Made by a program: the position numbers and the translations under genes. From Lysobacterales bacterium (GTDB lineage Bacteria; Pseudomonadota; Gammaproteobacteria; Xanthomonadales; SZUA-36): a stretch of 64,000 nucleotides of DNA. The first letter of the stretch is position 1; every line of letters starts with the position of its first letter. The notes beneath the pieces are model-generated. The model saw only the letters and a program-made list of their open reading frames with translations, was not told the origin of the DNA and ran no database searches. The stretch spans positions 1 to 64,000 of the forward strand of contig JANQPM010000089.1 of assembly GCA_028289465.1 (NCBI GenBank), written 5' to 3'. This document shows, piece by piece, positions 22,562 to 25,874 of the stretch.

Positions 22562-24514
22562 TCATTTCAAATCGCACAGGCAATGAGCATACAGCGCAAA
22601 CTGCTCGTCAGCCGCGGAAATCAGGCTCAAATCGTCCAGCAAACGCTGGACCAGACCGCTTTTGGCCCAGTTCGATGTGAGAATATTCGATGGCTTGAAC
22701 CAGTCGTCAATCCCCGCTACCGACGCCACGCCGGCGGTCATGTTCACCAAAAACCGCTCAAATGCCGACAATCGTGGTTCGACGAAATCAACGGTATAGT
22801 CGTCACTCAGGCCGGCTCGCTTGGCCGCGGCCGCAACCGCCTGCTGCAAGCCACCCAATTGATCCACCAAACCCCTTTCCAGTGCCTGTTCGCCGCTCCA
22901 GACCCGGCCCCGCGCAATCTGGTCCACATCGGCCGGTTCCATCTCGCGCGCAGCGGCCACGCGGTTGATGAACTCTTCGTAGCCGCGCTCAGTAGACCGC
23001 TGGAAGATTCGGCGGGCGTCGTCGGTCAGCGACCGTTCCGGCCGAATCGCACCGGCGAGCGGCGTACTGCCAACGCCGTCGTTGTAGATGCCGAGCTTGG
23101 CCAGGGTCTGCGGGAAGGTCGGTATCATGCCGAAAATGCCGATGGATCCGGTGATGGTCGCGGGCTGGGTCCAGATTTCATCCGAGGCCAGCGATATCCA
23201 GTAACCGCCCGATGCAGCGACATCACCCATGGAAATAACGATCGGCTTGCCCGCCTCCCTGACCGACTGCAATTCGCGCCGGACAATTTCGGACGCGAAT
23301 GCGCTGCCGCCCGGGCTGTTGACCCGAAAGACCACCGCGGCCACCCGGTCATCATGCGCGGCGCGGCGGATTTTTCGTGCAGTCGCATCGGCCGATATGA
23401 CGCCCGGCGGTTCGTCGCCGCCGACAATACTGCCTTCTGCGGTCACCACCGCGACGCTTTTGCCGGTCGACCGGCTTTGCTCGACCATGCCGAGATAGTT
23501 GCGAAAATAGACTTGGCGAAAGCTGTCGCCCCGGTCGGCGGCAGCACCGGCCTGAATCACTGCGCTGCGAAATTCCGGCCGGGACACCAATTGATCCACC
23601 AGGCCCTCGTTTAGCGCAAACGCGGCAAAATCGCCGTCCGCCTGATCGAGCTGAACCGCGTAATTCTCAATACTGCGATTCAATACCTCCAGCGGCAGAC
23701 CCCGGTTGCGCGCAACTCCGTCCAGATACTGGCGCCACAGGTTGTTAATCCAGTAGGCATTGGCTTCCCGGGCCTCTTCGGACATATTGTTGCGGATAAA
23801 CGGTTCCATCGCCGACTTGTACTCGCCGACCCGGAACAGGTTGATTTCCACCGCCAGCTTATCCAGCGCGTCTTTGTAGAAATTGCGATAACGCGCGTAG
23901 CCGTCAACCCAGACGAAGCCACTCGGGTTCATCCAGATTTCGTCGGCCAGCGCCGCGAAATAGTATTGATGCTGGGCCATATTCTCGGCATAGGTCAGCA
24001 CCGGCTTGCCGGATGTCTTGAAGTCCGTTACCGCCGCTTCCAACTCCTGCAGCGAGGCCAGACCCGCGCTCCAGATATAGTCCGGTATCAGAATCAGGCG
24101 GGAAATGCGGTCATCGTTTTTGGCCGCGCGAATCGACTTGATGATATCGCGCAAACGGACTTCCGGCTCCTGCCGGTCCAATGCCTCGCTCAGTGCCCGG
24201 TCCAGCGGATCGCCCGAGTACTGCTCGACGATATGGCCGTAGGGCTGAACCACCAGTGCGGTATTCGGCTTCAGCACGAATTGCTCGCCGGCCCCGAACA
24301 GGGCTTTGAACAGCAGCACCAGCAGCAAAATAAAGATGATGTTGAAAACCAGTCGGCGCGTACCGTCGACAAAACCCCAGAACCCGTTCCACAAGCGAAC
24401 CAGAAACGGTTTACGCTTGGTGGGCCGGCCGTTGACCGCCGTCAATGCCGGATCCTGCGCCGCGGAAGACCGCGACAGCTCATCGCCAAAAGGGTCATGA
24501 ATATTACTTCCCAT
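22562..24514 (-). CDS. sppA: Signal peptide peptidase SppA (protease IV), 67K type
   Basis: 650 residues from the ATG at 24512-24514, the long two-domain form. One membrane helix near residues 55-75 (LVFNIIFILLLVLLFKALFG) anchors it with the bulk in the periplasm. Catalytic dyad by comparison with E. coli protease IV: Lys233 in VGEYKSAMEP and Ser404 in NSPGGSAFASE, both present. SppA degrades signal peptides left in the inner membrane. It is divergent from pspA across a 323-base region holding a GC-rich hairpin (GCCGGCAG at 24559-24566 with CTGCCGGC at 24585-24592) and the psp promoter. Confidence 0.95.
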   Translation of the reverse strand: MGSNIHDPFGDELSRSSAAQDPALTAVNGRPTKRKPFLVRLWNGFWGFVDGTRRLVFNIIFILLLVLLFKALFGAGEQFVLKPNTALVVQPYGHIVEQYSGDPLDRALSEALDRQEPEVRLRDIIKSIRAAKNDDRISRLILIPDYIWSAGLASLQELEAAVTDFKTSGKPVLTYAENMAQHQYYFAALADEIWMNPSGFVWVDGYARYRNFYKDALDKLAVEINLFRVGEYKSAMEPFIRNNMSEEAREANAYWINNLWRQYLDGVARNRGLPLEVLNRSIENYAVQLDQADGDFAAFALNEGLVDQLVSRPEFRSAVIQAGAAADRGDSFRQVYFRNYLGMVEQSRSTGKSVAVVTAEGSIVGGDEPPGVISADATARKIRRAAHDDRVAAVVFRVNSPGGSAFASEIVRRELQSVREAGKPIVISMGDVAASGGYWISLASDEIWTQPATITGSIGIFGMIPTFPQTLAKLGIYNDGVGSTPLAGAIRPERSLTDDARRIFQRSTERGYEEFINRVAAAREMEPADVDQIARGRVWSGEQALERGLVDQLGGLQQAVAAAAKRAGLSDDYTVDFVEPRLSAFERFLVNMTAGVASVAGIDDWFKPSNILTSNWAKSGLVQRLLDDLSLISAADEQFALYAHCLCDLK

Positions 24515-24784
24515 AGTAAATTCCAATCAATGCCAGTCGCCAACCCGTAGAATTGTCGGCCGGCAGGTATTACAGCGTGCGCTGCTGCCGGCAAAAATGC
24601 TTCGGCAGGCAGGCGAGCGCCGCTAGTGTTTAAGCACCGTCTATTCTAGGTAAAGCTTAGGACCGCAACAATGCGCCAATTGTCACAGCCGGCATCGCCA
24701 GCAGTGTGTCAAATTCACCACCGGCAGACGCTGCCTATATCGAAACCCAGGATAAAAAATATTATAAATTAATCGCTTAACATC

Positions 24785-24800
24785 TGGCATGTTTTCTGCA
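24785..24800 (+). promoter_or_regulatory. Sigma-54 (-24/-12) promoter of pspA-pspC
   Basis: TGGCATGTTTTCTGCA: the invariant GG and GC are exactly 10 bases apart between them as in the consensus TGGCAC-N5-TTGC. Only C-to-T at position 6 and T-to-C at position 12 differ. The start of transcription would be near 24812, 26 bases before the pspA ATG. An AT-rich tract (about 24752-24778) just upstream could bend for an IHF-like protein. Phage shock operons are classically sigma-54 dependent through PspF, and no pspF is seen in the window. Confidence 0.85.
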
Positions 24801-24837
24801 TAAAGTACCTTGAAGGTTTATTTTTCAGGAGACAACC

Positions 24838-25548
24838 ATGGGAACATTTTCAAGGCTTCGCTATGTCATCGCCGCCAATGTGAACGCGATGCTGGAAAAG
24901 GCGGAAAACCCGCACAAACTGATCCGCGCGCTGATCCGCGAAATGGAGGAAGCTCGCGAAGAAGCGCGGGTTGCGGTGGCCGAATTGATGGCCGAGGAAA
25001 GCCATCTGGAGCGGTCGCTGCAACAGGCAGAGGCCAATCAGCGAAAATGGCAGGAACGTGCCGAGCTGGCGGTTAAACAATCCCGCGACGATCTGGCCCG
25101 CGAAGCACTTAAACAAAAAACGGAAACCGAGGAACTGCAATCCAATCTGAACGCCGAGCTCTCGGCCGCCCGCGAGCGCGTTGCCCAGGTCAGGCAGGAC
25201 ATGGCCACGCTGAACAGCAAGTTGCAGCAAGCCAAGCAGATCGAAACCGAACTCAGCCGCAAACCGGCAACCCATTCGGTAAACGGAAAAACGGTGGCCA
25301 TACCCGAGTCCAAGACGGACAAAAAACTGCGGCGGGTGTTTTCGCGTTTCGACACGCTGGAATCGCAGGTCGAATCGCTGGAGGCACGCGTGCGTTCCTA
25401 CGAGACCGTTGAGCCGACGCGCGATCCGTGGACCGCTTTGCGCTCAGTCGACGATGAAGCGGTCGAAGCCGAATTGAGCGCACTGAAAAAGCGCCTGGAC
25501 AAGCCCGCCAAGGCCGGCGGCAGCGCTGAAGCCGTACAAGGCGCCTGA
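24838..25548 (+). CDS. pspA: Phage shock protein A (PspA/IM30/Vipp1 family)
   Basis: 236 residues, preceded by AGGAG at good distance. Almost wholly coiled-coil helices: start FSRLRYVIAANVNAMLEKAE NP region, then IREMEEAREEARVAVAELMA and long Glu/Gln/Lys/Arg heptads to about residue 140, ending with RFDTLESQVESLEARVRSYE. Peripheral inner membrane ESCRT-III-like protein that supports membrane integrity under stress and in PspF systems inhibits the activator. Stop TGA overlaps the start of pspC. Confidence 0.95.
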   Translation: MGTFSRLRYVIAANVNAMLEKAENPHKLIRALIREMEEAREEARVAVAELMAEESHLERSLQQAEANQRKWQERAELAVKQSRDDLAREALKQKTETEELQSNLNAELSAARERVAQVRQDMATLNSKLQQAKQIETELSRKPATHSVNGKTVAIPESKTDKKLRRVFSRFDTLESQVESLEARVRSYETVEPTRDPWTALRSVDDEAVEAELSALKKRLDKPAKAGGSAEAVQGA

Positions 25549-25874
25549 TGATGCGGGGCCTGTATCGCAGCAGAAAATCCGCGCTGGTTGCCGGTGTCTG
25601 CGCCGGCATGGCCCGACGGTTCCAGTGGAACGTATGGCTGGTTCGAATGGCCTGGGTATTGCTGGCCCTGATTACGCTGAAGATCGCGCTGCTGGCCTAT
25701 CTGATCCTGGCTCTGGTCCTGCCGACAACCGATCGCAGCCCGCACAGCGGTGCAGACGAGGCCGGCGTCATCGACGGCGAAGCCCGGCGAATCACACCAG
25801 CCAATGCATCCAGCTTGCGAGTTCAACGCCTGGAAGAAGAGTTTCGCGAGCTGGAGCGGCGCTTGAAATCCTAG
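25548..25874 (+). CDS. pspC: Phage shock protein C (PspC domain)
   Basis: 108 residues. PspC domain at the N-terminus: GLYRSRKSALVAGVCAGMAR and the following FQWNVWLVRMAWVLLALITL membrane segment, plus a second hydrophobic stretch IALLAYLILALVLP. The C-terminal 25 residues form a short coiled coil (LRVQRLEEEFRELERRLKS) suited to contact PspA. The ATG at 25548 shares its A with the pspA stop; a second ATG follows at once. No pspB is present between pspA and pspC, unlike E. coli. Confidence 0.93.
   Translation: MMRGLYRSRKSALVAGVCAGMARRFQWNVWLVRMAWVLLALITLKIALLAYLILALVLPTTDRSPHSGADEAGVIDGEARRITPANASSLRVQRLEEEFRELERRLKS

Follow-up and report, generated by a model that had tools for sequence, protein, structure and literature searches.

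A pspA-pspC gene pair with neither pspF nor pspB beside it, placed downstream of a predicted sigma-54 promoter and back to back with the signal peptide peptidase gene sppA, raises the question of what controls such an operon, whether it can signal, and whether sppA shares its control. In the window (the whole 64-kb stretch of DNA analysed), the open reading frames place sppA on the reverse strand and pspA-pspC on the forward strand (24838-25874), divergent and with 323 bp between them. The sppA gene (22562-24514) starts at the ATG at 24514, the TTG at 24526 being the mechanical start of the open reading frame; its product is of the 67-kDa type, with a PF01343 match and 517.4 bits against the TIGR00705 equivalog cut-off of 311.45. 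The back-to-back placement of sppA and psp genes described in the initial annotation is thus confirmed by reading frames and profile matches alike. On the other side, the 236-residue PspA protein (24838-25548, forward strand) belongs to the PspA/IM30 family (PF04012, 97.3 bits; gathering score 33.9) and lies below the equivalog cut-off for canonical proteobacterial PspA (TIGR02977, 160.9 against 242.95 bits). It is followed, with an overlap of one base, by a 108-residue membrane protein (25548-25874, forward strand), which has a PspC domain (PF04024, 66.7 against 25 bits) and stays below the TIGR02978 cut-off (68.7 against 104).

Its sequence marks the operon in the window as a divergent paralogue, here called pspA2-pspC2, which exists beside a canonical psp operon elsewhere in the genome. 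This genome (2.95 Mb in 121 contigs, 95% complete) carries a complete pspA1-pspB-pspC1 operon on contig C120, whose proteins pass the TIGRFAM equivalog cut-offs for PspA, PspB and PspC (for PspA1, TIGR02977 283.4 bits, cut-off 242.95) and which has a sigma-54 promoter of its own, TGGCACG-AAAC-CTGCA. The only PspB above cut-off in the genome is encoded there; the statement that PspB is missing therefore holds for the window operon and fails for the cell, and a reading in which PspB has been lost is ruled out by the C120 operon. The gene rpoN, on which a sigma-54 reading depends, is found on contig C33. The sole PspF above cut-off lies on a contig other than that of the window (C53; 523.8 bits, cut-off 443.55), next to an alanine-racemase-like gene (named by eye), so that the earlier proposal of an activator encoded elsewhere, with no pspF at the locus, is borne out by the profile search of the genome. 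This PspF is 59% identical to that of E. coli, keeps a similar helix-turn-helix region and, by eye, the tryptophan W56. Four further genes of the enhancer-binding protein (EBP) type match the PspF model below its cut-off, and PspG, considered as a second PspF target, has no match above cut-off. Two additional PspC-domain genes are seen at G000:C48:38421-38588 and G000:C74:16884-17030, one of them a 68-residue open frame near a contig end.

The second operon is, by its distribution among the genomes searched, a family trait. The window PspA was searched against 61 genomes (the source and 60 relatives), 37 of which, the source included, fall in the same family; PspA2 occurs in 34 of these 37, namely the source, 29 close relatives and four members of genus g8 (about 37% identity), and the three family genomes without a match are 65-77% complete. 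PspA1 followed by pspB and pspC1 is present in 33 of the 37. In a tree of 92 PspA proteins, rooted at its midpoint only and carrying a long-branch warning for several proteins (including L216, L179 and that of the window), PspA2 forms one clade of 37 rows with a support of 100/100, to which three other families of the order also contribute copies; the tree omits L181 (a duplicate of L034), L223 (a distant, short PspA-like protein) and L057, whose contig ends inside pspA2 and which is also left out of the alignment. In a separate genome scan, the best 80 of 135 matches include 30 close ones, all from metagenome-assembled genomes labelled mainly Lysobacterales, Xanthomonadales or Gammaproteobacteria, with a few Chromatiales, Oceanospirillales and Proteobacteria; they probably overlap the 61-genome set. 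PspF and full-length PspA also go together beyond the family: of 24 other genomes from the order, ten have both and 14 neither, short and weak PspA-like matches being present in three of the latter. The unlinked position of pspF is general: in the 38 genomes with PspF and pspA, the two lie on different contigs in 37 and, in G019, pspF is 240 kb from pspA1. PspF above cut-off was not found in six of the 37 family genomes, where a laxer search yields partial PspF-like matches in two (G013, G007) and other EBPs only in four.

PspC2 bears on whether the window operon can signal. In E. coli, signalling through PspC is reported to be lost when the protein carries the V105D substitution (PMC6003685). 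The segment around V105 (YVTSxxF) is present in all 33 PspC1 proteins, with a pattern match in 32 and a judgement by eye for L163, but in none of the 29 PspC2 proteins, four of which come from other families, one of these (L179) being only partly matched. These 29 stem from 38 loci, the remaining nine, without a PspC match, being L035 and eight of genus g9 (seven readable, L057 cut by the contig end). The seven readable g9 loci (L040, L045, L046, L048, L049, L051, L054) have pspA2 with a sigma-54 promoter and a divergent sppA, and no PspC match after it. Outside the order, the Pseudoalteromonas loci L091, L092, L094, L095 and L101-L105, like the window operon, pair pspA with a PspC-domain gene and have no pspB match; no -24/-12 site of the form searched for stands before them.

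The operon could nevertheless be read as the Psp system of the cell, working without PspB, with PspC2 alone signalling to PspA2 and with sppA co-regulated. This reading fits the absence of pspB from the operon, its sigma-54 promoter and a divergent sppA at most informative loci (counts are given below); it is made highly improbable by the canonical operon in nearly all genomes of the family, by the tail missing from PspC2, by the lack of a PspC match in the seven readable g9 loci, and by an sppA that has its own promoter candidate and is without the enhancer where it is parted from pspA2. Of the two options in the initial annotation, that PspC signals alone or with other partners, the former is unlikely. 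Because PspC2 lacks the signalling tail, the operon is more readily seen as an effector module under the control of a circuit whose genes lie elsewhere. PspA2 may serve as an effector: its N-terminal helix stretch is kept, although less amphipathic than that of E. coli PspA (hydrophobic moment 0.34 vs 0.51).

The promoter of pspA2 is the predicted -24/-12 site TGGCATG-TTTT-CTGCA (24785-24800, forward strand), which ends 37 bp upstream of the pspA ATG at 24838. The motif itself carries little weight: with up to one mismatch it has three matches in the window against 6.94 expected, and TGGCAYGNNNNYTGCA occurs twice in the genome, as often as its backwards control. The consensus, being at chance level in both window and genome, was therefore dropped as evidence in its own right; the site rises above chance by place and conservation, both genomic matches to TGGCAYGNNNNYTGCA being the promoters of the two pspA genes. 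A sigma-54 site lies 52-77 bp before pspA2 in all 30 close loci, those of the source genome and of 29 relatives that are related rather than independent samples, and in three of four g8 loci; overall, it is kept in 33 of the 34 family genomes with pspA2, and no such site is found before pspA2 in L175. In families f5 and f10, the -12 element reads GT or GA in place of GC (by eye). The claim of a correctly spaced site upstream of pspA-pspC stands, with exact GG-N10-GC spacing conserved in relatives. Upstream of it, in an AT-rich stretch of 63 bp, a weak IHF-like site (24767-24779, forward strand) matches the IHF consensus with one mismatch; it may be due to chance.

The AT-rich stretch is bounded on its far side by a candidate PspF enhancer, ATCGCCAGCAGTGTGTCAAATTCACCAC (24694-24721, forward strand). 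The underlying 28-bp motif was trained on 34 pspA2 upstream regions only (L034, the same locus as L181, being left out). With the window held out of the model, the candidate scores 33.3 bits, which none of 2000 shuffles reaches; the next best score in the whole 64 kb is 12.9. Scores are low at some other pspA2 loci (L050 9.3, L038 12.5, L052 14.8 and g8 15.4-21.3 bits), and in L181, where the contig ends, the enhancer is unreadable. The motif, trained on pspA2, also finds the other operon: its site before pspA1 on C120 scores 17.4 bits (none of 2000 shuffles reaches this, the highest at 16.3), and in all 33 pspA1 regions the best match falls 100-132 bp upstream of the -24 GG, a positional range of 33 bp. 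Of 200 dinucleotide shuffles per region, none reaches the match in 30 of the 33 and at most two do so in any, although the 33 regions are not 33 independent tests because the genomes are related. The reverse-complement control on the same regions averages 6.6 bits and rises to 16.7, an effect of the partial palindromy of the motif. Scanned over 6 kb of E. coli K-12, the motif has its best match 159 bp before pspA, in the intergenic region shared with pspF, with 16.4 bits by the pspA2 model and 22.6 by a pspA1 model, the next best on the same strand scoring 4.4 and 0.2, respectively; the opposite strand also peaks in this region (14.8 and 14.3). In E. coli, both the pspA and the pspG promoter are reported to have upstream activating sites to which PspF binds (PMC3709507). 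In the source genome, the enhancer pattern has ten matches with up to one mismatch, against eight for its backwards control, and a TGGCAYG-type promoter lies within 260 nt of just two of the ten, both of them psp loci; another two are accompanied by looser GG-N10-GC words.

For pspA2, the marks of a PspF regulon are thus a sigma-54 promoter with GG-N10-GC spacing, an upstream candidate enhancer motif common to pspA1 and the E. coli psp region, and pspF and rpoN genes in the genome. Since the motif trained on pspA2 is found also before 33 pspA1 genes and in E. coli, it is very probable that PspF activates both psp operons. The four EBP genes below the PspF cut-off would leave room for another activator of pspA2, in which case the two operons would answer different signals. 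The enhancer consensuses do differ in detail, ntcgCCAanantttGtcAAatnCgCCAc for pspA2 and TCagCCAncTnTTGGtggAaTTngCCAa for pspA1, but a motif built from pspA2 alone finds sites before every one of the 33 pspA1 genes, at positions that span 33 bp, and again in the E. coli psp intergenic region; an activator other than PspF is improbable. PspF itself does not appear to be autoregulated through the enhancer where it is unlinked: 29 of 30 pspF loci (30 read of 41 found) have no site of at least 10 bits within 400 bp upstream. The one exception, L187 (G023), has an enhancer-like site of 13.8 bits 66 bp upstream of pspF and may be autoregulated; the next score is 9.4, at L200.

On the other side of the intergenic region, sppA appears to be transcribed from its own sigma-70-type promoter candidate, TTGTTG-17-TAGAAT (24643-24671, reverse strand), conserved at the corresponding place in relatives. 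Sites of the form TTGT..-16/18-TANNNT occur on the sppA side in 25 of the 29 loci with divergent sppA, and some TTG-type match occurs in 27; in 22 of the 29 the match is reached by at most three of 100 single-base shuffles, in the window by ten of 100, so that here conservation is the evidence. A sigma-54 promoter for sppA was considered and rejected in favour of the sigma-70 type: GG-N10-GC matches are scattered and, by eye, none is conserved, leaving sppA without this mark of the PspF regulon. A further sigma-70-like site, ATGCCA-18-TATAAT (24761-24790, reverse strand), overlaps the sigma-54 promoter and points towards sppA.

That the adjacency of sppA and pspA2 reflects nothing but inherited gene order, each gene having its own promoter and no control being shared, is a probable account, and one compatible with PspF control of pspA2. 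The adjacency is well kept: of 33 informative family loci, 27 have sppA directly divergent from pspA2 (the source, 22 relatives and four g8; one more locus is cut by a contig end and not counted), as do both f5 loci with pspA2, SppA being about 50% identical where the adjacency holds; sppA is not divergent in the f7 and f10 loci. Such persistence might speak for shared control, as does the closeness of the enhancer to the sppA -35, 22-99 nt in all but one of the 25 family loci that have a promoter match (L033: 202). Genus g11 points the other way. None of its six loci has a divergent sppA within 1.5 kb of pspA2; in four of these genomes sppA shares a contig with pspA2 at a distance of 6-8 kb, in a fifth it is on a different contig, and in the sixth no sppA was found. 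There, pspA2 retains its sigma-54 promoter and an enhancer-like site (12.5-26.9 bits), while the five relocated sppA genes have no enhancer (best 1.7 bits) and three of them keep a TTG-N3-17-TANNNT promoter; sppA therefore does not need the enhancer. The separation is explained by an inversion in G025, the sole g11 genome read by open frames: in L239 (G025:C37:8600-18600), the stretch that separates sppA from a DegP-like gene runs in the opposite orientation to that in the window, with both promoters kept, and comprises genes for an aminopeptidase, a DUF3667-like protein, an epimerase and a MATE protein, besides pspC2 and pspA2 (names by eye).

What remains of the idea that two envelope-stress functions are joined at this intergenic region is the conserved gene order; a joint response is disputed by the separate sppA promoter candidate and by the five parted loci without an enhancer, and co-regulation, unproven, is somewhat disfavoured. 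PspF tuning of adjacent sppA is conceivable because in E. coli PspF at the psp enhancer is reported to repress the divergent sigma-70 promoter of pspF from the corresponding place (PMC3709507). That PspF also tunes sppA from a shared enhancer, which in the window lies about 22 bp upstream of the candidate -35 element of sppA, is on balance unlikely; if it did, PspF control of a membrane protease would replace the E. coli autorepression of divergent pspF, and one PspF hexamer would raise membrane coating by PspA2 and reset membrane-peptide clearance by SppA.

The reading we consider likely, with good confidence, is that pspA2-pspC2 is a second target operon of the single unlinked PspF and an effector module with a tail-less PspC. 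The gene set, the promoter, the shared enhancer motif, the missing tail and the separate sppA promoter candidate are read from the sequence; PspF binding, stress induction and the effector roles are predicted. Upon inner-membrane stress, PspA1, which would hold PspF, would release it through the canonical circuit, with PspB and PspC1 as sensors. Freed PspF would bind the 28-bp enhancer at 24694-24721 and, via a DNA loop, open the sigma-54 polymerase at 24785-24800, so that pspA2-pspC2 would be made together with pspA1-pspB-pspC1. PspA2 would then act as an extra membrane-coating effector of the ESCRT-III type, and the tail-less PspC2, rather than transducing the signal, would be an effector or the membrane partner of PspA2; sppA would be read in the opposite direction, from a sigma-70-type promoter of its own.

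One close relative is the C120 operon of the same genome, which shares promoter type, enhancer motif and gene families with pspA2-pspC2 and differs by its pspB, its full PspC tail and its scores above the equivalog cut-offs. The Psp system of E. coli and Yersinia (pspF divergent from pspABCDE, pspG unlinked) has in common the sigma-54 promoter, the PspF-type activator and the enhancer motif in the pspF-pspA intergenic region, and there one PspF is reported to serve two unlinked promoters, as proposed here; here, by contrast, pspF is not linked to the operon, sppA takes its place as the divergent neighbour, and a paralogous pspA-pspC operon would be the second target, in a genome with no PspG above cut-off. 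In Bacillus subtilis, pspA and sppA are both reported as membrane-stress genes of the sigma-W regulon (PMC3498285, PMC8144471), a parallel for the functional pairing; they form separate operons (pspA-ydjGHI, sppA-yteJ) under one sigma factor, whereas in the window the two genes adjoin each other and differ in promoter type. Two PspA paralogues are described in that organism too, the second being LiaH. The bac operon of Pseudomonas aeruginosa also places a PspA-family gene (BacB, PspA-like) behind a proposed sigma-54 promoter outside canonical psp, but, as described, with other partner genes and a DUF2170 protein first. Comparative Psp surveys report PspA paralogues (PMC11237479, PMC9239133); in the main text of the former, the terms 'sppA', 'S49' and 'peptidase' do not occur, and in that of the latter, for which 'sppA' by name was not among the terms, the single peptidase passage is archaeal. 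Among the matches listed in literature searches, no title concerns an sppA-psp pair under sigma-54.

The 2022 survey describes tying PspF-type proteins to Psp outside Enterobacteriaceae as difficult (PMC9239133); the enhancer motif may be used to find Psp regulons where pspF is not beside psp. The operon would represent a split of effector from sensor within Psp, and a natural test of a second PspA together with a tail-less PspC. These considerations suggest that, in this little-studied gammaproteobacterial family, a single PspF can act on two unlinked psp operons, a complete one and another without the sensing parts.
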